NCBI RefSeq assembly: GCF_022374875.2
Contig: NZ_CP092427.2
Span: forward strand, 1,612,001-1,676,000
DNA: 64,000 bases
Source of the DNA: Mycolicibacterium rufum
Lineage (GTDB): Bacteria; Actinomycetota; Actinomycetes; Mycobacteriales; Mycobacteriaceae
Reading direction: 5' to 3'
Both the position numbers and the translations under genes were made by a program. The notes under the pieces are model-generated. The model did no database searches and was not told the DNA's origin. It saw only the letters and a list, made by a program, of their open reading frames with translations. Below, piece by piece: positions 34,771 to 47,044 of the stretch; position 1 is the stretch's first letter, and the number at the start of each line of letters is the position of its first letter.

Positions 34771-34787
34771 ATACTGTGGTGTAGTAT
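34771..34787. promoter_or_regulatory. Palindrome ATACT-N7-AGTAT and -10 box in the GT/TetR intergenic region
   Basis: ATACT (34771-34775) and AGTAT (34783-34787) form an inverted repeat between divergent glycosyltransferase and tetR genes. The right half overlaps TAGTAT (34782-34787), a plausible -10 box about 8 bases before the tetR GTG. A second partial repeat, AGTAttcatTACT, follows. A TetR autorepression site is inferred. Confidence 0.5.
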
Positions 34788-34795
34788 TCATTACT

Positions 34796-35452
34796 GTGTC
34801 ACCCAAGTCAATCTCTCGTAACTCGTCTCGCAACTATCGGTCGGAGTTGCGCGAGCAGCAGGCCCTCGCCACCCGCCGACGGGTGCTCGAGGCGGCCGCA
34901 GAATTGTTCGCCGCCGACGGCTACGCCCGCACCACCATGGCGAAAATCGCTGCCGCCGCCGGCGTCTCGGCCGAGACGGTGCAGGGCATGGGCCCCAAGG
35001 CCGCGCTGATGATCGCCGCGGTCGAGGACGCGGCATTCGGCGTCACGGGTGACCGGAGCATCCTCGACATGGATCTCGGCCGCACCCTGAAGGGCATCGA
35101 CGACGTCGACGCCGCGGTCGAGTACCTGGCCGCGGTGCAGACCGACATCCACGAACGCACGGCCACGCTCGCGATGGCGCTCACGGCGGGCGCGGGCGCC
35201 GACCCCGTCCTGGACCGGTACGTGACCGACCTGACCGCCGGGATAGGCCGCCAGCTCCGACGGGTCGTCGACGTGTTCCGCGACCGCGGCTGGGTGCGCA
35301 CCGACGTGCCCTACGACGAGGTCGTCGAGACCGCGGTCGTGCTGGCCGGCGTGGAGACGTTCCTGCGGTTCACCCACCGCGACGGGCACAGCGTCGACGC
35401 GTTCCGCGGATGGCTGCGCCGGATGGTGCGCGAGACCGTCTGCGCACCGTGA
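34796..35452 (+). CDS. TetR family transcriptional regulator
   Basis: A 218-residue regulator. The N-terminal helix-turn-helix is clear: RRRVLEAAAELFAADGYARTTMAKIAAAAGVSAETVQGMGPKAALM. The C-terminal ligand domain is unremarkable. The GTG at 34796 lies about 8 bases after a TAGTAT hexamer with no ribosome site, so the transcript is probably leaderless. It is divergent from a glycosyltransferase and just upstream of the AhpD-like gene. Ligand unknown. Confidence 0.85.
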   Translation: MSPKSISRNSSRNYRSELREQQALATRRRVLEAAAELFAADGYARTTMAKIAAAAGVSAETVQGMGPKAALMIAAVEDAAFGVTGDRSILDMDLGRTLKGIDDVDAAVEYLAAVQTDIHERTATLAMALTAGAGADPVLDRYVTDLTAGIGRQLRRVVDVFRDRGWVRTDVPYDEVVETAVVLAGVETFLRFTHRDGHSVDAFRGWLRRMVRETVCAP

Positions 35453-35460
35453 CGCCGCGC

Positions 35461-35487
35461 TGTCACACTTCGCGGCGCTGCGCCGTC
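35461..35487 (+). promoter_or_regulatory. Candidate ECF41 (SigJ-type) promoter TGTCACA-N16-CGTC
   Basis: TGTCACA (35461-35467), a 16-base spacer and CGTC (35484-35487) match the published ECF41 promoter pattern. The element ends 8 bases before the ATG of the carboxymuconolactone-decarboxylase-like gene, implying a nearly leaderless message. An ECF41-type sigma gene lies 4 kb away on the other strand. Confidence 0.7.
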
Positions 35488-35495
35488 TGCTCGGT

Positions 35496-36074
35496 ATGAC
35501 TCCCCGCATCGAACCCCTCCCCGCCCCCCGCGCCTCGCTGCTGACCCGACTGATGTGGCGCTACGCCCGCCGTCGCTTCGGCGAGGTCCCCGAGCCGTTC
35601 GCCATCTACGCCCACCACGGCGGACTGCTGATGACCGCCGCCGCCCACGAGGGCATGCTCGAGCGGGCGTCGACGACGCTGCCTGCCGGGGTGCGCGAAC
35701 TGGCCGTGTACTGGACCGCCCGCCAGATCGGCTGCTCGTGGTGCGTCGACTTCGGTGCGATGCTGATGCGCCTCGAGGGCCTGGACATGGCACGCCTCAC
35801 CGACATCGACGTGTATGCGACCTCCCCGCAGTACTCCGACGACGAACGCGCCGCGATCGGCTACGCCGCGGCGATGACCTCCGACCCGCACACCATCACC
35901 GATGATCAGGTGGCCGACCTTCGCCGGCGCTTCGGCGACAAGGGTGTGGTGGAGCTGACCTACCAGATCGGCGTGGAGAACATGCGGGCCCGGATGAACA
36001 CCGCGCTGGGCATCACCGAGCAGGGCTTCGCCTCCGGCGGCGCGTGCCGGGTGCCCGGGGAGGCGAAGCGGTGA
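35496..36074 (+). CDS. Carboxymuconolactone decarboxylase / AhpD-like protein
   Basis: A 192-residue alpha-helical protein of the CMD/AhpD family. It has the redox-type Cys-x2-Cys motif in RQIGCSWCVDFGAMLMR and the flanking ELAVYWTAR helix. AhpD-like proteins act as alkylhydroperoxidases or thiol-disulfide enzymes. The substrate here is unknown. The ATG follows a candidate ECF41 promoter directly. CMD proteins are one of the three standard partner families of ECF41 sigma factors, so it is the most likely SigJ-type target in this window. Confidence 0.87.
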   Translation: MTPRIEPLPAPRASLLTRLMWRYARRRFGEVPEPFAIYAHHGGLLMTAAAHEGMLERASTTLPAGVRELAVYWTARQIGCSWCVDFGAMLMRLEGLDMARLTDIDVYATSPQYSDDERAAIGYAAAMTSDPHTITDDQVADLRRRFGDKGVVELTYQIGVENMRARMNTALGITEQGFASGGACRVPGEAKR

Positions 36075-36108
36075 CGCCGTCGTTTCGAGCGGGTGTTTCA
36101 ATCGTCGG

Positions 36109-36738
36109 GTGACCCCCGATGACCGGCCGGCCGGGGCAGGCGGGCGACCCCGCGACGCGACGATCGACGAGCGTGTGCTGGCCGCGACCCGCGAACTCCT
36201 GCTCGAGGTGGGCTGGGACGACCTCAGCGTGCGCATGGTGGCGACCCGGGCGGGGGTGGGCCGCGCCAGCCTGAGCCGCCGTTGGAACTCCAAAGCCGAG
36301 TTGGTGCTGCACGCGATCCTCGGCGAAACCCCGGATCTGACACCGTTTTCCGGGACCGACCTGACGGGGTGGGTCGAATGGGTGGTACGCGGCAGCCACG
36401 AGCTGTTCAGCCGGCGCGACGTCAGCGAGGCGGTACCGGGGCTGCTGTTGGCGTTGCGGGAGAACGACGACATGCGAAAAGCGTTGTGGGCGAACTTCAG
36501 CACACCCGCGGTCGCCCTGTTCGCCGAGCACCTCGGTGCCGACACCCCGGCCCGTCGCCGGGGCGTCGAACAGGATGCCCGCGCCGTGCTGGTGATGGCC
36601 GCCGGCGCGGCGCTGTTCCTGACCACCGTGGGCGTCGAGGACGACACCGCGGCGTTACGGCACCGGATCGCCGAGTTGCTGTCGGCCGGTATCCGCACCA
36701 CTGCCCCGCACGGTCGCGATGATCGCCGCTCGCGCTGA
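36109..36738 (+). CDS. TetR family transcriptional regulator
   Basis: A 209-residue regulator with an N-terminal HTH (ERVLAATRELLLEVGWDDLSVRMVATRAGVGRASLSRRWNSKAELV) and a TetR_C-type ligand domain (EAVPGLLLALRENDDMRKAL). It starts with GTG 34 bases after the AhpD-like gene, so it may be co-transcribed with it. Its last 84 bases overlap the 3' end of the convergent epimerase gene. Confidence 0.86.
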   Translation: MTPDDRPAGAGGRPRDATIDERVLAATRELLLEVGWDDLSVRMVATRAGVGRASLSRRWNSKAELVLHAILGETPDLTPFSGTDLTGWVEWVVRGSHELFSRRDVSEAVPGLLLALRENDDMRKALWANFSTPAVALFAEHLGADTPARRRGVEQDARAVLVMAAGAALFLTTVGVEDDTAALRHRIAELLSAGIRTTAPHGRDDRRSR

Positions 36739-37671
36739 GCGCCACTGCATTGCGAGGTCGCGCAACGTGGCGGTGTCGTCGGTGGGCGTGGCCGCCAGCA
36801 ACAGGATCGCGGCCTCCTCACTCAACCCGTCGGGCAACGCCACGTACCGGGCGAGGACGTCGGCGGCACGCGCGGCGGCGCGGAAGGCGGCCGCCGGCAC
36901 CGGAATCCGACGGATCGGTCGGCCCAGCCCGGCCTCCAGCGCGTCGACCATCTCGCCGAACCGCAGCATCTCCCCGCCGCACACGTAGCGGCGCGGCCCG
37001 AGACCGGGGCGCATGACCCGTGTGTGCACCTCGGCGACGTCGCGCACATCGATCATCTGCATGCCGCCGTCCAGTCGCGGCGCGACGGCCCACCGCACGA
37101 TCGGCGCCCAGCCGCGTTCGGTGACACCGGGGGCCGTGTCGAACGCCGGACCGACGACGCTCGACGGATACGTCACCACGACCGGGGCGCCGTCGTCCTG
37201 CAGGCGCCTGGCGACCCGGTCGGCGTACCCCTTGGTCTTGGCATAGGCGCTGCGTCCCGCGGCGGTCGGAGTCTGCGGGGAGATCACGCCGTTCGCGGCC
37301 GGGAAGAGCGCGCTGTAGCTGCTCACGGTCAGCACGGGGTCGAGGCCGCGCTCGACCGCGCGGTGCAGGATCGTCTCGGTGGCGTAGGCGTTGACCTCCC
37401 ACATCAGCCGCACCCGCCGCTCGTCGGTGCCGACGACTCCGGCCGCGTGCACGAGCGCCTCGGCTCCGTCGAGGAACCTGACGACGTCGGCGTCGCTACA
37501 GATGTCGCCGACGGTGACCGTCACCGATCCCGCCGCGCGCAGCCGGACGAGGACCGACGTCTGCGCTTCCGACGGCGGCACGAGCAGGCGCAGCCGATGG
37601 CCGGCCGCCAGCAGCGCCCGCGCCGTATGCGCCCCGACGTAGCCGGTTGCCCCGGTCATCGCGATGTCCAC
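36655..37671 (-). CDS. NAD-dependent epimerase/dehydratase (extended SDR)
   Basis: A 338-residue Rossmann-fold protein. The nucleotide-binding motif is TGATGYVGAHTARAL, the active-site Tyr-x3-Lys is in SAYAKTKGYADRV, and VSSYSALFP carries the catalytic Ser region. The substrate is unknown. The start is GTG at 37671; an ATG four codons later is an alternative. It converges on tetR with an 84-base overlap and is divergent from an OYE gene at 16 bases. Epimerases of this type are one of the ECF41 partner families. Confidence 0.86.
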   Translation of the reverse strand: MDIAMTGATGYVGAHTARALLAAGHRLRLLVPPSEAQTSVLVRLRAAGSVTVTVGDICSDADVVRFLDGAEALVHAAGVVGTDERRVRLMWEVNAYATETILHRAVERGLDPVLTVSSYSALFPAANGVISPQTPTAAGRSAYAKTKGYADRVARRLQDDGAPVVVTYPSSVVGPAFDTAPGVTERGWAPIVRWAVAPRLDGGMQMIDVRDVAEVHTRVMRPGLGPRRYVCGGEMLRFGEMVDALEAGLGRPIRRIPVPAAAFRAAARAADVLARYVALPDGLSEEAAILLLAATPTDDTATLRDLAMQWRSARAAIIATVRGSGADTGRQQLGDPVP

Positions 37672-37687
37672 GGCGTGTTAGATTACG

Positions 37688-38896
37688 ATGCCAATGGCAT
37701 CGATACAAGCGTTCCGCCCGGCACCGCTGGGTCCGCTGACACTGAAGAACCGATTCATCAAGGCCGCCACGTTCGAGGGCGTGATGCCGCGCGGGCAGGT
37801 CAGCCCGGCCCTGATCGACTTCCACGCCGAGGTGGCCCGCGGCGGCGCGGCGATGACGACGATGGCGTACTGCGCCGTCTCCCCCGGCGGCCGGGTGCAC
37901 CGTGACACGATCGTCCTCGACGCCGACCGCGCCCGGGCATTGCGCGATCTGACCGAGGTGGTGCACGCCGAGGGAGCGCTGGTGTGCGCGCAGATCGGCC
38001 ACGCCGGACTGGTCGCGAACACGCTGTCCAATCGGACGCCGACCCTGGCCCCGTCCACCCGGCTCAGCGCGCCGGCGATGGGCGTGGTGCGCGGCGCCAC
38101 GGCAGGGCAACTCGAGGCAGTCGTCGACGACTTCGGCGCCGCCGCGGCACACGCCGTAGACGCCGGATTCGACGCGATCGAGATCCACATGGGCCACGGC
38201 TACCTGCTGAGCTCGTTCTTCAGCCCGAACCTCAACCGGCGCAGCGACAGCTACGGCGGCGACACCGTCCGGCGCGCCGAACTCGCCCGCCGGGTCGCCG
38301 AGCGGGTGCGACGCACAGTCGGCGACACCGTCGCCGTCACCGCGAAGTTCAACATGGACGACGGTGTGCGACGGGGCTTCTGGCTGACCGACAGCCTGCC
38401 CACCGCCCGACTGCTCGAGGCCGACGGACACCTCGACGCGCTGCAGCTGACCGGTGGCAGCTCACTGGCCAACCCGATGTACTACTTCCGCGGTGACGTG
38501 CCTCTCGAGGAGTTCATCGCCTCCCAGCCGCGCGCCGTGGGTCTCGGGCTGCGCCTCATCGGTCGGCGCATGTTCCGCGAATATCCCTTCACCGAAGCAT
38601 TTTTCGCCCCGCAGGCGCGCCAGTTCCGAGAAGCGCTGACCATGCCCCTGATCCTGCTGGGCGGCATCAACCGGCTGGACACCGTGACGGCGGCGCTCGA
38701 CGAGGGCTTTGCGTTCGTGGCGATGGCTCGCGCGCTGCTGCGAGAACCCGATCTGGTCAACCGGTTTCGTGACCGGACCGCCACCGAGGGTCTGTGCGTG
38801 CACTGCCAGAAGTGCATGCCGACCGTCTACAGCGGAACTCACTGCGTGGTGCGCAGCGGCGAACCGGTGAACTTGTCCGGGTTGGCGATGTCGTAG
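37688..38896 (+). CDS. NADH:flavin oxidoreductase / old yellow enzyme family
   Basis: A 402-residue FMN TIM-barrel oxidoreductase. It shows LTLKNRFIKAATFEG, AQIGHAGL, the substrate-binding FDAIEIHMGHGYLLSSFFSPNLNRRSDSYGG, and LLGGINRLDTVTAALDEGFAFVAMARALLREPDL for FMN phosphate. A cysteine cluster CVHCQKCMPTVYSGTHC near the end resembles the cluster-binding segment of 2,4-dienoyl-CoA reductase-like enzymes, but the second flavin domain is absent. The 3' end overlaps the sigma gene by 58 bases. The ATG at 37694 is an alternative start. Confidence 0.88.
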   Translation: MPMASIQAFRPAPLGPLTLKNRFIKAATFEGVMPRGQVSPALIDFHAEVARGGAAMTTMAYCAVSPGGRVHRDTIVLDADRARALRDLTEVVHAEGALVCAQIGHAGLVANTLSNRTPTLAPSTRLSAPAMGVVRGATAGQLEAVVDDFGAAAAHAVDAGFDAIEIHMGHGYLLSSFFSPNLNRRSDSYGGDTVRRAELARRVAERVRRTVGDTVAVTAKFNMDDGVRRGFWLTDSLPTARLLEADGHLDALQLTGGSSLANPMYYFRGDVPLEEFIASQPRAVGLGLRLIGRRMFREYPFTEAFFAPQARQFREALTMPLILLGGINRLDTVTAALDEGFAFVAMARALLREPDLVNRFRDRTATEGLCVHCQKCMPTVYSGTHCVVRSGEPVNLSGLAMS

Positions 38897-39735
38897 ACCG
38901 CCACCACCTGACCGTCGCGCACCGTCAGCGCCTGGATCCGGGGCGCGATCGCGGGGCCGTGCGCATCACCGTCGTCGCCCCGGGAGAACACGCCCAGCTC
39001 GCCGTTGACCAATCCGAGCTCGCCGCTGGTGAACAACCGCGGCCCGTAGCGCCGCGCCAGCCCGAGCAGGAACCGCCCGACCTTGTCGCGGCCGTGGATG
39101 ACCTGCGGGGCGGTCGGCGCCCGCCGGTTCGCATCTCCGGTGAACGTGACCTCGGGATGCAGCAGCGCGACCACGGCGTCGAGATCACCGGCCGCCATCG
39201 CCGCCATCAAGGCACCGACCACCTCGTCGTGCTCGGCCGCCGGCGGCGGCGCCACCGCGACAGCACGGCGCGCCCGCGACGCCAGCTGCCTCGCGGCCGC
39301 CGGCGTCGTACCGAGCACGTCGGCGATCTCGTCGAATGGCACCGCGAACCCGTCGTGCAGCACGAACGCCACCCGCTGGTCGGGAGTGAGGTTCTCCAGC
39401 ACCACCATCGCCGCGAAGCGGGCGTCCTCCCCGGCGACCACGGCGGCCAGCGGATCGTCGCCGTCCAGTGAGGTCACCACCGGTTCAGGCAGCCAGGTGC
39501 CGGTGTACGTCTCGCGCCGGCGGACCGCCGAGCGCAGCCGGTCGAGCGCCAACCGGCTGACCACCGTGGTCAACCACGCCCGCAGATCGACGATCCCGGT
39601 GTCGCGATGGCCGGCCCAGCGCAGCCAGGCGTCCTGCACGACGTCTTCGGCGTCGGCGAACGTCCCCGTGAGCCGATAACCCACCGCGAGCAGGTACGGG
39701 CGCAGTTCTTCGAAGTCCTCGGTCCGCGCGGCCAT
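38839..39735 (-). CDS. sigJ: ECF41-type RNA polymerase sigma factor, SigJ-like
   Basis: A 298-residue extracytoplasmic-function sigma factor. Region 2 is EELRPYLLAVGYRLTGTFADAEDVVQDAWLRW. Region 4 contains LTPDQRVAFVLHDGFAVPFDEIADVLGTTPAAARQLASRARRAV. A SnoaL-like C-terminal domain (about 190-290) follows, replacing a separate anti-sigma factor. This is the ECF41 architecture, and M. tuberculosis SigJ (Rv3328c) lies at the matching place near dacB1. The ATG at 39735 gives the standard N-terminus; in-frame starts up to 39810 exist. Its neighbours include a CMD protein, an oxidoreductase and an epimerase. Confidence 0.85.
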   Translation of the reverse strand: MAARTEDFEELRPYLLAVGYRLTGTFADAEDVVQDAWLRWAGHRDTGIVDLRAWLTTVVSRLALDRLRSAVRRRETYTGTWLPEPVVTSLDGDDPLAAVVAGEDARFAAMVVLENLTPDQRVAFVLHDGFAVPFDEIADVLGTTPAAARQLASRARRAVAVAPPPAAEHDEVVGALMAAMAAGDLDAVVALLHPEVTFTGDANRRAPTAPQVIHGRDKVGRFLLGLARRYGPRLFTSGELGLVNGELGVFSRGDDGDAHGPAIAPRIQALTVRDGQVVAVYDIANPDKFTGSPLRTTQ

Positions 39736-39797
39736 GACATCGAGCGTAATAGCCACCATATGCAACGAAATCCGAAGCTGTGAGGTTGCTGTATCGA

Positions 39798-39851: not shown

Positions 39852-41572
39852 GTGGTCAAGCATGACATGGCACACGGTGAGGGCATCGTCGAGAGCAAGG
39901 GACTCAAGGGCGGTGCCCTCGGTCTGGTCTCCAGCATCGTGGTGGGGATGGCGTCCACAGCGCCCGCCTACAGCCTGGCCGCCACCCTCGGCCTGATCAT
40001 CGCCAGCGGCGGGGCCCTGCTCTCCGGGGTCAAGGCGCCGGCGATCGTGCTCATCTCGTTCATCCCGATGTATCTGATCGCGGTCGCCTACCAGGAACTG
40101 AACAAGGCCGACCCGACTGCGGCACCACCTTCACCTGGGCCTCGCGCGCCTTCGGCCCGGTCGTCGGCTGGCTCGGCGGCTGGGGCATCATCGCCGCCGA
40201 CGTCATCGTGATGGCCAACCTCGCGCAGATCGCCGGGTCGTACTCGTTCACCTTCGCCGGAGACCTCGGCTGGAGTTCGGCGGCCACGCTGTCGGCCAGC
40301 ACATTCTGGTCGACGGTGGCCGGCGTCATCTGGATCGCGGTGATGACCTACATCTGCTACCGCGGCATCGAGGTCTCGGCGCGACTGCAGTACGCGCTGC
40401 TGGGCATCGAGGTCGTGGTGCTGATCGGGCTGTCGATCGTCGCGCTGATCAAGGTGTACACCCACACCGCCGAGAGCTATTCGCTGATGCCGTCCCTGTC
40501 GTGGTTCTGGCCCGGCGGCCTGGACTTCGGCACCGTGATCGCACCGGCCGTGCTGACCACCATCTTCATCTACTGGGGCTGGGACACCGCCGTGGCCTGC
40601 AACGAGGAGTCCGACGATCCCGGACGCACCCCCGGCCGCGCCGCGGTGATCTCCACCTTCCTGCTGCTGGCGACCTACGCGCTGGTGAGCGTCGCGGCCG
40701 TCGCGTTCGCCGGCGTCGGCACCGACGGCATCGGGCTGGGCAACCCGGACAACTCCGCCGACGTGTTCGCCGCGATCGGCCCGGATCTGTTCGGCGACAG
40801 CGTCTTCGGCCATATCGGACTGCTGCTGCTGTCAGCCTCGATCCTGACCTCGGCGTCGGCGTCCACGCAGACCACGATCCTGCCGACGGCGCGGACCACG
40901 CTCTCGATGGGCGTCTATCGCGCCCTGCCCGCGTCGTTCGCCAAGATCCATCGGCGTTACCTGACCCCGACCACGTCGACCGTCGTCATGGGTGTCGTCT
41001 CGGCGGTGTTCTACGTGCTGTTCACCGTGATCAGCACCAACCTGCTGACGGCTCTGATCGGCTCGGTCGGCCTGATGATCGCCTTCTACTACGGGCTGAC
41101 CGGGTTCGCCTGCGTCTGGTTCTACCGAAAGACGCTGACGCGCAACACCCGTGACCTGGTGATGCGCGGGGTGGTACCGCTGCTGGGCGGCATCGTGCTC
41201 CTGGTGGTGTTCGTCTACGGCCTGCTGCAGTACGCCAAGCCGGACTGGCTCACCGACGACGACGGCAACAACGTCACGATCTTCGGGGTCGGCGCGGTGG
41301 CGGTCGTCGGCATCGGCGCGCTCGTGCTCGGCCTCGTGCTGATGGTCCTCTGGCGGGTGGTCTCGCCGGACTTCTTCCGGGGCGTCACGCTGCCGCGACG
41401 CAGCCACGACCTGGTGCTGGAGACCGTGCCGGATCAGGAGGCGGCGGTGGCGCGGTTCGGTCTGCCCGACGCGGGCGATGTGCCCACGATCATCGCCGGC
41501 GACCTATCCAACCTGCCGCCCGGCGAGAAGGCGATCGACCTTCTGACCGGCCAGGAGTACACCAAGAACTGA
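39852..41572 (+). pseudogene. APC-family amino acid permease broken by a one-base frameshift
   Basis: Residues 1-88 (GTG start after GGAGGG) read as a normal APC permease: ALGLVSSIVVGMASTAPAYS through QELNKADP. After CCG at 40113-40115 one G is missing (expected CCGGAC TGC; the intact paralogue at 41633 has it). The frame then runs out by 40211, and the correct frame resumes as DCGTTFTWASRAFGPVVGW and continues to 41572. Restored, the protein would be about 573 residues with 12 or so helices and a roughly 70-residue C-terminal extension. It may be a true pseudogene, a phase-variable state or an assembly error. The substrate of the intact form is probably an amino acid or amine. Confidence 0.85.
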
Positions 41573-41632: not shown

Positions 41633-43144
41633 ATGGCAATCACCTCCGAACCGTCGACCCCGGCTGTCGGCAGCAAGGGGCTGCAGGCCGGTGCGCTCGG
41701 CCTCGTCGGCAACGTCGTCATCGGTCTGGCGGCGGTGGCGCCGGCCTACAGCCTTGCCGCGACGCTGGGCTACGTGGTGCTGGAGGTCGGCGAAAAGGCA
41801 CCGTCGATGTTCGTGCTGGCGTTCATCCCGATGCTGCTGGTGGCCTTCGCCTACAAAGAACTCTCCCAGGAGACCCCGGACTGCGGCACCACGTTCACCT
41901 GGGGCACCAAGGCTTTCGGGCCGTGGATCGGCTGGATCGGCGGCTGGGGCCTGGCGGTGTCGGCGATCATCGTGCTGGCCAACGTCGCCGAGGTGGCCGC
42001 GATCTACCTCTACAACTTCCTCGGCCTCGACGACCTGGCCGACAACACCGTCGCCACCGTCGGATTGGGATGCTTCTTCATCGTCGCGATGACGCTGGTG
42101 TCGGCCCGCGGCATCGTCGTCAGCGAGCGGGTGCAGAACATCCTGATCGCCGTGCAGTTCGGGGTGCTGATCATCGTCAGCGTCATCGCGCTGGTGCGGG
42201 TGTTCTCCGGAACCGCTGGCGCGCAGGCGATCAGCCCGCAGCTGTCGTGGTTGTGGCCCAGCGGGCTCGACACGTCGTCCATCGCCGCGGCGGTGATCCT
42301 GTGCATCTTCATCTACTGGGGCTGGGACGCCTGCCTGGCCGTCGGTGAGGAGACCAAGGATCCCGGCCGGACCCCGGGCATCGCTGCCGTCATCACCACG
42401 CTGATCCTCGTGTGCACCTACGTCCTGGTGGCGTTCGCGCTGCAGTCGTTCGCCGGATTCGGCGAGGTCGGCATCGGTCTGAACAACGCGATGAACTCCG
42501 ATGACGTCCTCACCGTGCTCGGTGAACCGGTGGCGGGCAGCATCGCCGCGTCCGCGCTGCTGCTCACCGTGTCGGTGTCGGCGCTGTCCTCGACGCAGAC
42601 CACCATCCTGCCCACCGCACGCGGCACGCTGTCGATGGCCGTCTACGAAGCCATCCCACGACGGTTCGCCACCGTGCATCCGCGCTACATGACGCCCGCC
42701 TTCGGCACGATCGTGATGGGACTGTCGGCGCTGTTCTTCTACCTGCTGCTGAAGATGTTGTCGGAGAACGCCCTTGCCGACTCAGTGGCCTCGCTGGGGC
42801 TCGCGGTCGCGTTCTACTACGGCATCACCGCGTTCGCGTGCGTGTGGTATTTCCGCCGGACGCTGTTCACCTCGCCGCGGAACTTCTTCTTCCGCGGCCT
42901 TTTCCCGCTGCTGGGCGGTATCGCGATGGCGGCGGCGTTCGGCATCAGCGCCAAGGACATGATCGCGCCGGACTACGGGTACACCGCGTTCGGTCCGATC
43001 GGCGGGGTGTTCGTGCTCGGCGTCGGGATGCTGGTGCTCGGCATCCCGCTGATGTTGGCGTGTTTCGCGTTCGGCACGAAACGCTTCTTCCGCGGCGAGA
43101 CGCTCAACGCGTCCACCGAAGTCCAAGTCCCCGACGTCTACTGA
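41633..43144 (+). CDS. APC-family amino acid/amine permease
   Basis: A 503-residue membrane transporter with about 12 helices. Family hallmarks are GLVGNVVIGLAAVAPAYSLAATLG in helix 1, PDCGTTFTWGTKAFGPWIGWIGGWG, and IYWGWDACLAVGEETKDPGRTPG near helix 6. It is a paralogue of the frameshifted permease 60 bases upstream. TATATT (41621-41626) lies exactly 6 bases before the ATG with no ribosome site, suggesting a leaderless transcript of its own. A universal stress protein gene follows after 9 bases and is likely co-transcribed. Substrate unknown; nearby genes suggest an amine or GABA-like compound. Confidence 0.88.
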   Translation: MAITSEPSTPAVGSKGLQAGALGLVGNVVIGLAAVAPAYSLAATLGYVVLEVGEKAPSMFVLAFIPMLLVAFAYKELSQETPDCGTTFTWGTKAFGPWIGWIGGWGLAVSAIIVLANVAEVAAIYLYNFLGLDDLADNTVATVGLGCFFIVAMTLVSARGIVVSERVQNILIAVQFGVLIIVSVIALVRVFSGTAGAQAISPQLSWLWPSGLDTSSIAAAVILCIFIYWGWDACLAVGEETKDPGRTPGIAAVITTLILVCTYVLVAFALQSFAGFGEVGIGLNNAMNSDDVLTVLGEPVAGSIAASALLLTVSVSALSSTQTTILPTARGTLSMAVYEAIPRRFATVHPRYMTPAFGTIVMGLSALFFYLLLKMLSENALADSVASLGLAVAFYYGITAFACVWYFRRTLFTSPRNFFFRGLFPLLGGIAMAAAFGISAKDMIAPDYGYTAFGPIGGVFVLGVGMLVLGIPLMLACFAFGTKRFFRGETLNASTEVQVPDVY

Positions 43145-43153
43145 GGAACCATC

Positions 43154-44014
43154 ATGCATCTGACCGTCGGCTACCTGGCCACCCCGACCGGCGACGACGG
43201 CGTCGCGCTGGCCAGCGCGCTCGCCCGCACCTTCGACGCGACCGTCGACGTGCTGCTGGTGGTGCGCGAGGAACTGCCCGACGGTCACCCCGGCCGCGCC
43301 GAATACCAACGCCTGCTCGTCGAGCGCGGCGAGCAGTGGGTGGCCGGCGCCGTGGCCACCCTGGCGCGCGACGGGGTGCGTGCCGGATCGTCGGTGACCG
43401 TCGGAGAGTCGTTCGCGCAGACGCTGATCGGGTTCGCCGAGGAGAAGTCGTCGGACCTCATCGTGGTCGGTGGGGCGCGGGACGGCTTCTTCGGCCGGCA
43501 CACCATCGGTCCGGTCACGGGGGCCCTGCTGCACTCCTCGCCGATCCCGGTGGCCCTGGCTCCGCGCGGCTACGCCGAGGATCCGGACGAGACGTTCGCC
43601 GCGGTGACCGCCGCGGTGCCCACCAAGGCGGGCGACGACAATCCGCTGCCGTTCGCGATCACGCTGGCCAGCGCGGCCGGCCTGGGGATCCGGATGCTGT
43701 CGCTGGTATCGGCGGAGAACCTCGCCGAGGCCGGCAGCGCGCGGGAGGTGCGGCAGCTGCAGGTGACCGCGGCCGAGGAGAATCTCGTGCTCGCGGCGCG
43801 CGCGCTGCCGGACTCCCCGGAGATCGAGTCGCTGGTGGCCGACGGCATGACGCTGGAGTCGGCGCTGAAGAAACTCAACTGGGACGACGGCGACCTGCTC
43901 GTCGTGGGTTCATCGCGGTTCGCCGCGCCGCGCCGCATCTTCCTGGGGTCGACGGCCGCCCGCATCCTCGCCGGCGTCGACGTGCCGGTGATCGTGGTTC
44001 CCCGCGACGATTAG
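43154..44014 (+). CDS. Universal stress protein, tandem UspA domains
   Basis: A 286-residue protein with two Usp domains. The first (1-about 135) contains DLIVVGGARDGFFGRHTIGPVTGALLHSS, and the second ends in DLLVVGSSRFAAPRRIFLGSTAARILAGVDVPVIVVPR. Both carry the Gly-x2-Gly-x9-Gly-(Ser/Thr)-type ATP-binding segment, though the first is atypical. Usp proteins bind ATP or cAMP and often adjust transporter or metabolic activity. The close spacing to the permease suggests a transporter-associated role, as seen for other APC-Usp pairs. Confidence 0.87.
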   Translation: MHLTVGYLATPTGDDGVALASALARTFDATVDVLLVVREELPDGHPGRAEYQRLLVERGEQWVAGAVATLARDGVRAGSSVTVGESFAQTLIGFAEEKSSDLIVVGGARDGFFGRHTIGPVTGALLHSSPIPVALAPRGYAEDPDETFAAVTAAVPTKAGDDNPLPFAITLASAAGLGIRMLSLVSAENLAEAGSAREVRQLQVTAAEENLVLAARALPDSPEIESLVADGMTLESALKKLNWDDGDLLVVGSSRFAAPRRIFLGSTAARILAGVDVPVIVVPRDD

Positions 44015-44278
44015 GGCGTGCGGACGCGCACGAACGGTACGTGAACAAGCAAACACTCAGAGGCTTTCGTTTTCTTTGCCGATAGCGGCGTCGGCCACGT
44101 TCTGCTGTTGTCACGCCATTAACCGACGTCGCATTGATTGTGCTGTAGAAACGCCATGGCTTCCGGGGCGAATTCTGGCATCGAGGAAACTCCTCGAGAT
44201 TTTCCGCCCCGGAGGGCAGCAAACATGCCTACCATCCCCCGGACGGACCAATGTGGGTCGTCACCGGGGGGTGGGGTC

Positions 44279-47044
44279 ATGGGGTGTGAGAAATTCGTGG
44301 GTCGCGTCGGCGCGTTGGCCGTGGCACTGGGCATCGGGACCGCGCTGGCGCCGCCGGTCTGGGCGGAGACGCCGGACACGTCCGCCGCGGGCTCAGCCGA
44401 ACACCCCTCGACCGATGCGGATACGCCGGCGAAATCGGATCGTCCTGCTGACAGCGCAGAGCCGGACGCCGACAACGACTCCGGCACGGAGGCGGAACCG
44501 GCGGCCGAGACCGAACCCGACGCCGAGTCCGACGATGACAGTGCGCGTCCGTCGTCGCGGAAGCGAGCGAAACGATCGCCGAAGGACAGCGCCGAGCGGC
44601 GGCTGGACAGGGCGGAGCGGCGGCTGAACAAGGCGGCCACGCGTGACACGGAACCCGCCGTCAGCACTGTCGATGACGCGCCGCCGGTGAAAATCGCCTT
44701 CCGACAACCGCGAACGTCGCAAAGACCCGCGCAACCCGAGCCTCTCGAGCGTGGCCGTGTCGCACCCTGGGCCCCTGCCGCTCGCATCGAGTCCGCAGCA
44801 CCGACAACGTCGGTGACGATCACCGCTGCAGCAGCGCCACGCACAGCGCCATCGACTCCCCCGGTCACCCCGCCGGGCGACTCGCCGCTGCTGCTCGGCC
44901 TCCTCGCGTTCAGCCGACGCGAGCTCCAGCGCACCTACTTCAACCGCACTCCGCGGGCGGTGGCCGACGTCGCCACCACCTCAGAACAGGTGCCGGCGCG
45001 AATTCCCGTGCTGGCCAACGACACGGACCGAGACGGTGACGTGCTCGCCGTGGCCACGTTCACCCAACCCAGACACGGTACGGTCACCGTCAACCCCGAC
45101 CGCACCCTCACCTACACCCCCGACGACGGGTTCACCGGGGTCGACACCTTCACCTACACCGCCACCGACCAGTCGAGCACCCCGCACTACCACGGCCTCC
45201 TGGGACGGCTGCTCAACATCGGCCATACCTCCAAGGCCACCGTGACCGTGACTGTGCAGGACGTCAACCGACCGCCCGTCGCCAATCCGGGCTCCGTGCA
45301 GAATGTCAGCGAGAACAGCACCACCACAGCAACTCTGGCCAATCTCGTCAGCGATCCGGACGGCGACACCCTGACCCTCGAGGTCGTCACGCAACCCGCG
45401 CTCGGTACGGTCACCTTCATCACGGCCACCGGCTTCCGCTACGTCGCTCCGGCCGACATCGGCACGGCCACCTCGACGACCTTCACCTACCGCGCGTTCG
45501 ACGGCTCCGCCTACAGCAACACGGCAACGGTCACCATCGCCTTCGTCACGCCCAACAAAGCGCCGATGGCCACCGACGACACCGCATCGGTCGATGAGGA
45601 CGGCGCAATCGCAATGTCGGTACTGGGCAACGACTCCGACCCGGACGGCGATGCGCTGACCGTCACCGCCGTCGGCACCGCCGCCCATGGCAGTGTGTCG
45701 CTGGGCGCCGGCGGCGTCGTCACTTACACCCCCGAAGCAAACTACTTCGGCGAGGACTCGTTCACCTACACCGTCAGCGACGGTGCGCTGAACGTCACCG
45801 CCACGGTGACCGTCACGGTCGACCCCGTCGAGGACGCACCGGTCATCCAATCGGTCCAGTCGCGTGCCGTCGACAGCTACACCTGGATCGTCACGGTCAC
45901 GGCCTTCGATCTCGACGGGACGACTCCGGACGTCACGCTGACCGCGGACGACCCGACACGCGTGACCATCACTCCGATCGCCGCGGGACTGCGCAGCTTT
46001 GCCCGGGCGTTCGCGATCACCGAATCCGCGCCCACCAGTGTGGATTTCGAAGTCGTCATCACCGACACCGCGTGGGCGCTGGCGCATCCCGGCGCACTGG
46101 TCGGCGTCACTGCAGGAGCCGACGATGGAACCTCTGCCGCGGCCCTCAGCGATGTGACCGTCGGCGCGGTGATCAACGTCGTGGGTGTCGGCAACAATGG
46201 CCGCGGACAACTCGATCTGCCCGCGCCGCCGGCGGGGGTCTACTACACCACGATCGCCACCGACGCCCACACGGTCGCCCTGCGCTCCGACGGCACCGTC
46301 GTCGCAGTCGGCGGCCCGAACGAGAACGGGGAGCTCGACATCCCGCCGCTGCCCGACGGCGTCACGTACACCGACGTCGCGGTCGGCGTGGGATACACCG
46401 TGCTCCTGCGGTCCGATGGCTCTGTGGTGTCTTTCGGCAACAATGACTTCGGGCAGAACGACATCCCTCCCCTCCCCGACGGCCTGACCTACACCCACAT
46501 CGGCGCCAACAGCGAGTACACGGTCCTGGTGCGCTCGGACGGCGAGGTACTTCGGGTGGGCGACCTCGACAACCTCGCCTCGTTCGACTTCCCGGCGTTA
46601 CCCACAGGGGTCAGCTATACCGACGTCGCCGTCGGCCAGTACGGAGTGCTGCTGTTGCGGTCCGACGGAAAAGTAGTCGGGGCGGACGACAACACCTTCT
46701 TCTACGATCCGATCCCCGATCCTCCTGCCGGAGTCGAGTACACGGCCATCGCCGCCGGGCTGGCGCATGCGGTGCTGGTGCGGTCGGACGGCAAGGCGAT
46801 CGGACTGGGCTACAACTACTTCGGTCAGGCCACTCCGCCACCGCTGCCCGCCGGCGTGACGTACACCGGGGTGGCCGCGGGGGGCTACTACTCGGTGCTG
46901 CTGCGCTCCGACGGAACAGCCGTCGCCTTCGGCCTGGATGCCCCGGACATCCCGGACCTGCCTGCCGGCGCGCGCTACGTCGACGTCTTCTCCGGCGGTG
47001 CGGCCACGTTCCTGCTGACGTCCACGAACGTGCAGTCAGCGTAG
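44279..47044 (+). CDS. Large secreted protein with cadherin-like and RCC1-like repeats
   Basis: A 921-residue exported protein. The signal peptide is GRVGALAVALGIGTALAPPVWA with likely cleavage after Ala29. An acidic, Pro/Ala/Asp-rich low-complexity linker follows (about 30-150). Then come three Ig/cadherin-like VCBS-type modules (IPVLANDTDRDGDVLAVATF, LVSDPDGDTLTLEV, VLGNDSDPDGDALTV). The C-terminus has about seven 38-42-residue RCC1-like repeats with the theme LRSDGTVVAVG...PPLPDGVTYTDVAVG. The ATG at 44279 follows a GGGGGG-TGGGG purine run and gives a mycobacterial-type signal peptide. No enzyme motif or anchor is visible. An adhesive or binding role is inferred. Confidence 0.82.
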   Translation: MGCEKFVGRVGALAVALGIGTALAPPVWAETPDTSAAGSAEHPSTDADTPAKSDRPADSAEPDADNDSGTEAEPAAETEPDAESDDDSARPSSRKRAKRSPKDSAERRLDRAERRLNKAATRDTEPAVSTVDDAPPVKIAFRQPRTSQRPAQPEPLERGRVAPWAPAARIESAAPTTSVTITAAAAPRTAPSTPPVTPPGDSPLLLGLLAFSRRELQRTYFNRTPRAVADVATTSEQVPARIPVLANDTDRDGDVLAVATFTQPRHGTVTVNPDRTLTYTPDDGFTGVDTFTYTATDQSSTPHYHGLLGRLLNIGHTSKATVTVTVQDVNRPPVANPGSVQNVSENSTTTATLANLVSDPDGDTLTLEVVTQPALGTVTFITATGFRYVAPADIGTATSTTFTYRAFDGSAYSNTATVTIAFVTPNKAPMATDDTASVDEDGAIAMSVLGNDSDPDGDALTVTAVGTAAHGSVSLGAGGVVTYTPEANYFGEDSFTYTVSDGALNVTATVTVTVDPVEDAPVIQSVQSRAVDSYTWIVTVTAFDLDGTTPDVTLTADDPTRVTITPIAAGLRSFARAFAITESAPTSVDFEVVITDTAWALAHPGALVGVTAGADDGTSAAALSDVTVGAVINVVGVGNNGRGQLDLPAPPAGVYYTTIATDAHTVALRSDGTVVAVGGPNENGELDIPPLPDGVTYTDVAVGVGYTVLLRSDGSVVSFGNNDFGQNDIPPLPDGLTYTHIGANSEYTVLVRSDGEVLRVGDLDNLASFDFPALPTGVSYTDVAVGQYGVLLLRSDGKVVGADDNTFFYDPIPDPPAGVEYTAIAAGLAHAVLVRSDGKAIGLGYNYFGQATPPPLPAGVTYTGVAAGGYYSVLLRSDGTAVAFGLDAPDIPDLPAGARYVDVFSGGAATFLLTSTNVQSA

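Follow-up and report, generated by a model that had tools for sequence, protein, structure and literature searches.

The window, that is, the whole 64,000-nt stretch of Mycolicibacterium rufum DNA that was analyzed, contains a gene for an ECF41 sigma factor of the SigJ type and a gene for an AhpD-like protein of the carboxymuconolactone decarboxylase (CMD) type (here called the CMD gene). The two lie tail to tail around a gap that holds a TetR-SDR-OYE trio of genes. All of them, together with a second TetR-family gene, were found where the initial annotation had placed them, and their arrangement in window coordinates is as follows.

34781-35452, plus strand: second TetR-family gene (start provisional in this reading), preceding the CMD promoter
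35461-35487, plus strand: ECF41/SigJ-type promoter TGTCACACTTCGCGGCGCTGCGCCGTC, with the -35 element TGTCACA at 35461-35467, a spacer of 16 nt and the -10 element CGTC at 35484-35487
35493-35496, plus strand: predicted transcription start of a leaderless mRNA, at the ATG or at most 3 nt from it
35496-36074, plus strand: AhpD-like/CMD-type protein of 192 amino acids with a CxxC motif (GCSWC), predicted SigJ target
36109-36738, plus strand: TetR-family regulator of the inserted trio
36655-37671, minus strand: SDR of the epimerase type, part of the inserted trio; its 3' end and that of the TetR gene overlap
37686-37702: palindrome CGATGCC-AAT-GGCATCG around the beginning of OYE, a candidate operator for the TetR of the trio
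37688-38896, plus strand: OYE/FMN oxidoreductase, also part of the inserted trio; it shares 58 bp with sigJ where the 3' ends of the two genes overlap
38839-39735, minus strand: ECF41 sigma factor SigJ, with sigma2, WLPEP linker, sigma4 and SnoaL_2
39743-39748, minus strand: probable vegetative -10 element TACGCT, of the TANNNT type and 7 nt upstream of the sigJ start codon (ATG)

The identification of the sigma factor in the initial annotation was borne out. The protein scored 398.9 bits with the NCBIfam SigJ model (cut-off, 271) and matched the Pfam models Sigma70_r2, Sigma70_r4_2 and SnoaL_2, all above their cut-offs, which is the domain composition of the ECF41 group. The WLPEP linker motif, defined for ECF41 in the excerpt of PMC3426412 used here, was located at W81 to P85 and was invariant in six aligned sequences. 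The best solved relative was M. tuberculosis SigJ (PDB 5xe7; E of 1e-126), of which the window protein is the orthologue. Judged by these sequence features, the locus is an ECF41/SigJ locus. The probable -10 element of sigJ was assigned with the vegetative TANNNT/ANNNT-type consensus given in an excerpt of PMC6448022.

Upstream of sigJ, a permease-like gene appeared in the window (39852-41572) split between two reading frames, with one ORF at 39852-40211 and another at 40208-41572; since the same gene is a single ORF in the relatives L266 and L275, this points to a frameshift or a sequence error in the window. Further on lie a second permease-like gene (41633-43144) and a gene for a universal-stress-like protein (43154-44014), both named by eye (41633-44014 together), and a long ORF in which repeated segments resembling cadherin and RCC1 were recognized, also by eye (44138-47044).

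As for the partner, described initially as a CMD/AhpD-like protein, that label called for a correction. The window protein was unmatched by the Pfam CMD model (PF02627) at E values up to 10, without reaching the gathering score, and a relative of it scored 18.4 bits against a cut-off of 23. It did match AhpD-like NCBIfam models, although below cut-off, as well as AhpD-type PDB structures by sequence. The predicted fold, built from 17 close sequences with moderate confidence (pLDDT of 77.5), was all-helical with a CxxC motif, as in AhpD-like proteins, and its best Foldseek match was 6k40 (E of 2.9e-7). The cysteines C80 and C83 were invariant in the 17 sequences. On sequence matches and a model, then, the partner is an AhpD-like protein with a CxxC motif. 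Its nearest counterparts in named genomes were those of M. chlorophenolicum (93%) and M. chubuense (91%), in a collection from which the window's own record may be absent.

The site noted initially before the CMD gene, a perfect ECF41 consensus (TGTCACA-N16-CGTC), was confirmed 8 nt before the ATG at 35496. Significance could not be drawn from matching alone. Thus, the expectation for the window was 0.44 matches, at least one match arose in 41 of 100 shuffles, and the 6.1-Mb genome contained four exact matches, compared with five for a reversed control. As promoters, the three further matches in the genome are all unconvincing: two had no ORF of at least 80 amino acids starting within 250 nt, and the third had ORFs only from at least 111 nt downstream. 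What lifts the motif above chance is its conservation at the orthologous position.

All 94 SigJ-bearing genomes of the genus contained [TCG]GTCAC[AG]-N16/17-CGTC before the CMD gene, 8 to 9 nt from the ATG. The site was exact in 47 of them (one with N17) and differed by one mismatch in 42 and by two in 3; in the remaining 2, where the CMD gene was only partially matched, it was found further up, before the ATG. Mismatches were confined to the first base of the -35 element or its last A, and the -10 element CGTC was retained in every one of the 94 genomes. Similarly, in a collection of 80 loci from named genomes, whose species overlap with those of the 118-genome genus set, the site preceded CMD in 65 of the 66 loci with SigJ, the exception (L305) having AGTCACA. 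Outside the genus, [TCG]GTCAC[AG]-N16-CGTC was present before CMD in 41 of 44 cases, and two of the three misses carried near variants. With at most one mismatch allowed, the site was found at 25 of 30 CMD loci and in 88 of 3,000 random windows, which were drawn from the same loci and include the true sites. Before sigJ it was found at none of 30 loci, with one locus at two mismatches, and autoregulation of sigJ was rejected on these grounds. By sequence conservation, the CMD promoter is an ECF41-type site, and the locus shows the combination typical of ECF41 factors, a linked COE gene preceded by TGTCACA-N16-CGTC.

The two genes were also strongly associated with each other. In the genus set of 118 genomes, CMD was present in 103 (E of at most 1e-40) and a SigJ orthologue in 94; the line for SigJ was set by eye at the break between approximately 63 to 93% identity and paralogues below 48%, and the 94 include one genome with SigJ in two pieces (G171) and one with a fragment at a contig end (G181). 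In all 94, SigJ and CMD were convergent on one contig, separated by at most 108 bp in 63 and by 497 to 4,918 bp in 31. SigJ never occurred without CMD, CMD occurred without SigJ in 9 genomes, and neither was found in 15 (Fisher's exact test, P of 3.6e-13, which ignores kinship). In the wider family, 101 genomes were drawn; every CMD match of 54% identity or more from outside the genus was taken (44 in total), weaker ones being left out, and SigJ was defined as the best match with an E value below 1e-72. SigJ was convergent within 1.2 kb in 34 of these 44, absent in 1, and more than 8 kb away or on another contig in 9. Three of the 46 SigJ genomes outside the genus had no CMD orthologue at the level used, one of them being an incomplete assembly. 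Taken at the level of gene order, SigJ and CMD are an ancient convergent pair. Transcription of CMD very probably depends on SigJ, as predicted from the site and the gene pairing.

Within the genus, the distance between promoter and gene was nearly constant. Among the 101 genus loci in which the CMD 5' end was matched, SigJ-less ones included, the -10 element and the start codon were 8 nt apart in 97 and 9 nt apart in 4. Outside the genus, this distance was 34 to 73 nt in 39 of the 41 sites with an assigned start, and a Shine-Dalgarno-like sequence was recognized by eye before the CMD start. The excerpt of PMC3426412 reports mapped 5' untranslated regions of 22 and 23 nt for ECF41 targets, and for these genes its Table 5 lists 31 and 32. 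We read the table as counting from the -10 element, so that transcription would start approximately 9 nt after it, which in the present locus would be at the CMD ATG. The spacing of 8 to 9 nt thus implies a leaderless SigJ-dependent mRNA, and the CMD transcript is probably of that kind. Leaderless mRNAs make up approximately a quarter of mycobacterial transcripts, according to excerpts of PMC4633059 and PMC6448022.

The genomes with CMD and no SigJ bear on whether SigJ is what reads this promoter. Eight of the nine in the genus (G029, G108, G115, G121, G139, G148, G188, and G193) formed a single clade (support 100/97), and all eight had TGTCACA with a -10 element CATC, at the 8-nt spacing, before CMD. 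In six of them, CMD was followed within the fetched stretch by the permease gene found on the far side of SigJ in the window. The ninth, G184, contained SigJ remnants and a weakened site. Of the 14 named loci without SigJ, L238 and L303, both with CGTC, were excluded, since SigJ could be located beyond the region that was fetched. The other 12 all retained TGTCACA, with CATC in 10, GGTC in 1 and TGTC in 1; these loci, among which L266, L275 and related ones belong with the TGTCACA/CATC pattern, overlap with the clade of eight, which alone was placed by tree. The clade represents one evolutionary event and so provides no statistical link; yet its -35 element has outlasted its sigma factor, and the site may be used or bound there by another factor.

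This retention of TGTCACA in eight SigJ-less genomes could be taken to mean that SigA or a second ECF41 factor is the main reader of the CMD promoter and that its link to SigJ is historical. Other candidates do exist: G115 and G193 each contained exactly one other ECF41-like protein (E up to 1e-12), and the genome of the window carries a second one, 37% identical to SigJ. However, the CGTC kept wherever SigJ is present in the genus speaks against it, as does the only genome outside the genus with CMD and no SigJ orthologue, which has no site and is the third of the misses mentioned above. We regard such a replacement as very unlikely for the window, and SigJ remains our choice for its CMD promoter.

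Within the SigJ-less clade, that of M. rhodesiae, M. litorale and their relatives, a hand-over is a tentative reading that we consider possible but rather doubtful: sigJ would have been lost, the -10 element would have changed from CGTC to CATC, and another sigma factor, for example a remaining ECF41, would now drive the promoter, still leaderless. If true, the clade would document, in nature, how a promoter is re-coded once its own sigma factor has been lost. A take-over by SigA could likewise be envisaged, the change to CATC adding the A of ANNNT (consensus from the excerpt of PMC6448022), but by our own reading the T of ANNNT is missing at the right place in three of the eight clade sites. 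Among the other ECF41 loci of 14 genomes (L218 to L231), a [TCG]GTCACA-N15/17-C[AG]TC site was found in one only, before a reductase-like ORF, so these loci do not show which sigma factor reads CATC. That site, TGTCACA-N17-CGTC close to another ECF41 gene in G197, stands shortly before the ORF (L230:1811-1838), and the two genes probably represent a further ECF41 pair of the ordinary type. The sequence GTCAACNNAATATTG, present once upstream of CMD in five of the eight clade genomes and absent from three, was considered as a new CMD operator and rejected: it faces a divergent acyl-CoA-dehydrogenase-like gene (named by eye), and by our own reading it resembles a TTGAC-type promoter on the other strand, for which reason it was not taken as a CMD regulator.

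The initial annotation had proposed that SigJ, CMD, SDR, OYE and the TetR genes might form a composite stress-response module with only one directly controlled gene. Such a co-regulated system would account for the presence of all genes within 4.3 kb, and SDR and OYE families are linked to other ECF41 factors in the excerpt of PMC3426412. Moreover, the CMD-SigJ interval holds the trio in 4 of the 80 named loci (M. chlorophenolicum, M. chubuense, M. iranicum DSM 45541, and Mycolicibacterium sp. BiH015), and a fifth has it further downstream. Within the genus set, however, the trio occupied this position in only 3 of 103 genomes, the window included, and the TetR gene at 34781-35452, outside the conserved pair, was likewise matched in only 3 of 103 genus loci. 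OYE relatives at 77 to 82% identity, aligning no further than residue 392 of the 402 of the window OYE, were found in five of 60 genus genomes searched, besides the genome of the window and G149. In all five, TetR and SDR accompanied OYE in the same order, with SDR in pieces in two and OYE in one, and the five 7-kb stretches around these trios contained no CMD, SigJ or ECF41-type site. Since the order of its genes persists away from SigJ and CMD, the TetR-SDR-OYE trio is an independent unit. As stated initially, no motif was found before SDR or OYE: a relaxed pattern gave five sites in the window, none before either gene. The three trio genes were rejected as SigJ targets given both the lack of a site before them and the independence of the trio. 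The claim of a single directly controlled gene is thus retained as a prediction, for CMD, while that of a module uniting three partner families is not, and we consider the latter highly improbable.

The gap itself resembles a tolerant insertion site, with unrelated genes lodged in it in 31 of the 94 SigJ-bearing genus genomes. The trio was missing from 28 of these 31 inserts. Ten proteins from ten other gaps were scanned, of which nine were MmpL, PE, AraC, esterase, steroid dehydrogenase or lysyltransferase proteins, and one matched no family. Contents so varied suggest a landing place for diverse genes, the COE-type cargo here being coincidental, and the rarity of the trio between the pair, together with its free occurrence elsewhere, makes the meeting of three partner families look like an accident of insertion.

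The trio may have its own control. A palindrome, CG[AG]TGCCAATGG[CT]ATCG, was found at the OYE start in four of the five free units. It overlaps the first OYE codons, so coding constraint could account for part of its conservation; the bases before the ATG were conserved too. In the genome of the window there was one perfect copy, at OYE, and the same place matched on the other strand with one mismatch. A wider regulon was rejected, the six other matches all having two mismatches compared with two matches for the reversed control. We infer that the palindrome is a candidate operator of the trio's TetR.

Our preferred interpretation, in which we have considerable confidence, is therefore that of an ECF41 SigJ with a single cognate target, the AhpD-like CxxC protein, arranged tail to tail, with the trio as an independent insertion outside SigJ control. 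In the mechanism we propose, SigJ would be made from the vegetative promoter and held by its SnoaL_2 domain until a signal arrives; once released, it would direct RNA polymerase to 35461-35487, and the resulting leaderless mRNA would start at or beside the CMD ATG, its product acting as a thiol-based peroxidase or reductase. In this lineage, the trio would have entered the gap between the two genes, and its TetR would probably repress it. As the target is common to every SigJ-bearing genus genome examined, with a fixed geometry, it could serve as a simple reporter for the signal sensed by the SigJ SnoaL_2 domain. The locus also cautions that insertions between convergent genes can inflate the number of partner families counted in a neighborhood.

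Compared with known systems, the locus is ordinary in kind, its interest lying in the clade without SigJ and in a target whose mRNA is probably leaderless. The ECF41-COE pairs of Bacillus licheniformis (ydfG) and Rhodobacter sphaeroides (RSP_0606), as described in the excerpt of PMC3426412, likewise have a C-terminal extension, WLPEP, a CxxC CMD-type partner with a TGTCACA-type -35 element before it, and a single detectable target. The present locus differs from them in the apparent lack of a leader before the target start, compared with 22 and 23 nt, and in the lack of a site before the sigma factor gene, while its tail-to-tail layout accounts for only nine loci (2%) in the table of that excerpt. 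With the AhpD-like alkylhydroperoxidases 6k40, 2prr and 2oyo the partner shares the predicted fold (TM scores of 0.77 to 0.80) and CxxC, although it is only 19 to 25% identical to them, falls below the NCBIfam cut-offs and has no Pfam CMD match. Finally, in M. tuberculosis, the orthologous SigJ (5xe7) is linked to sigI, which it regulates according to the excerpt of PMC4821874, whereas the direct target proposed here is the convergent AhpD-like gene.
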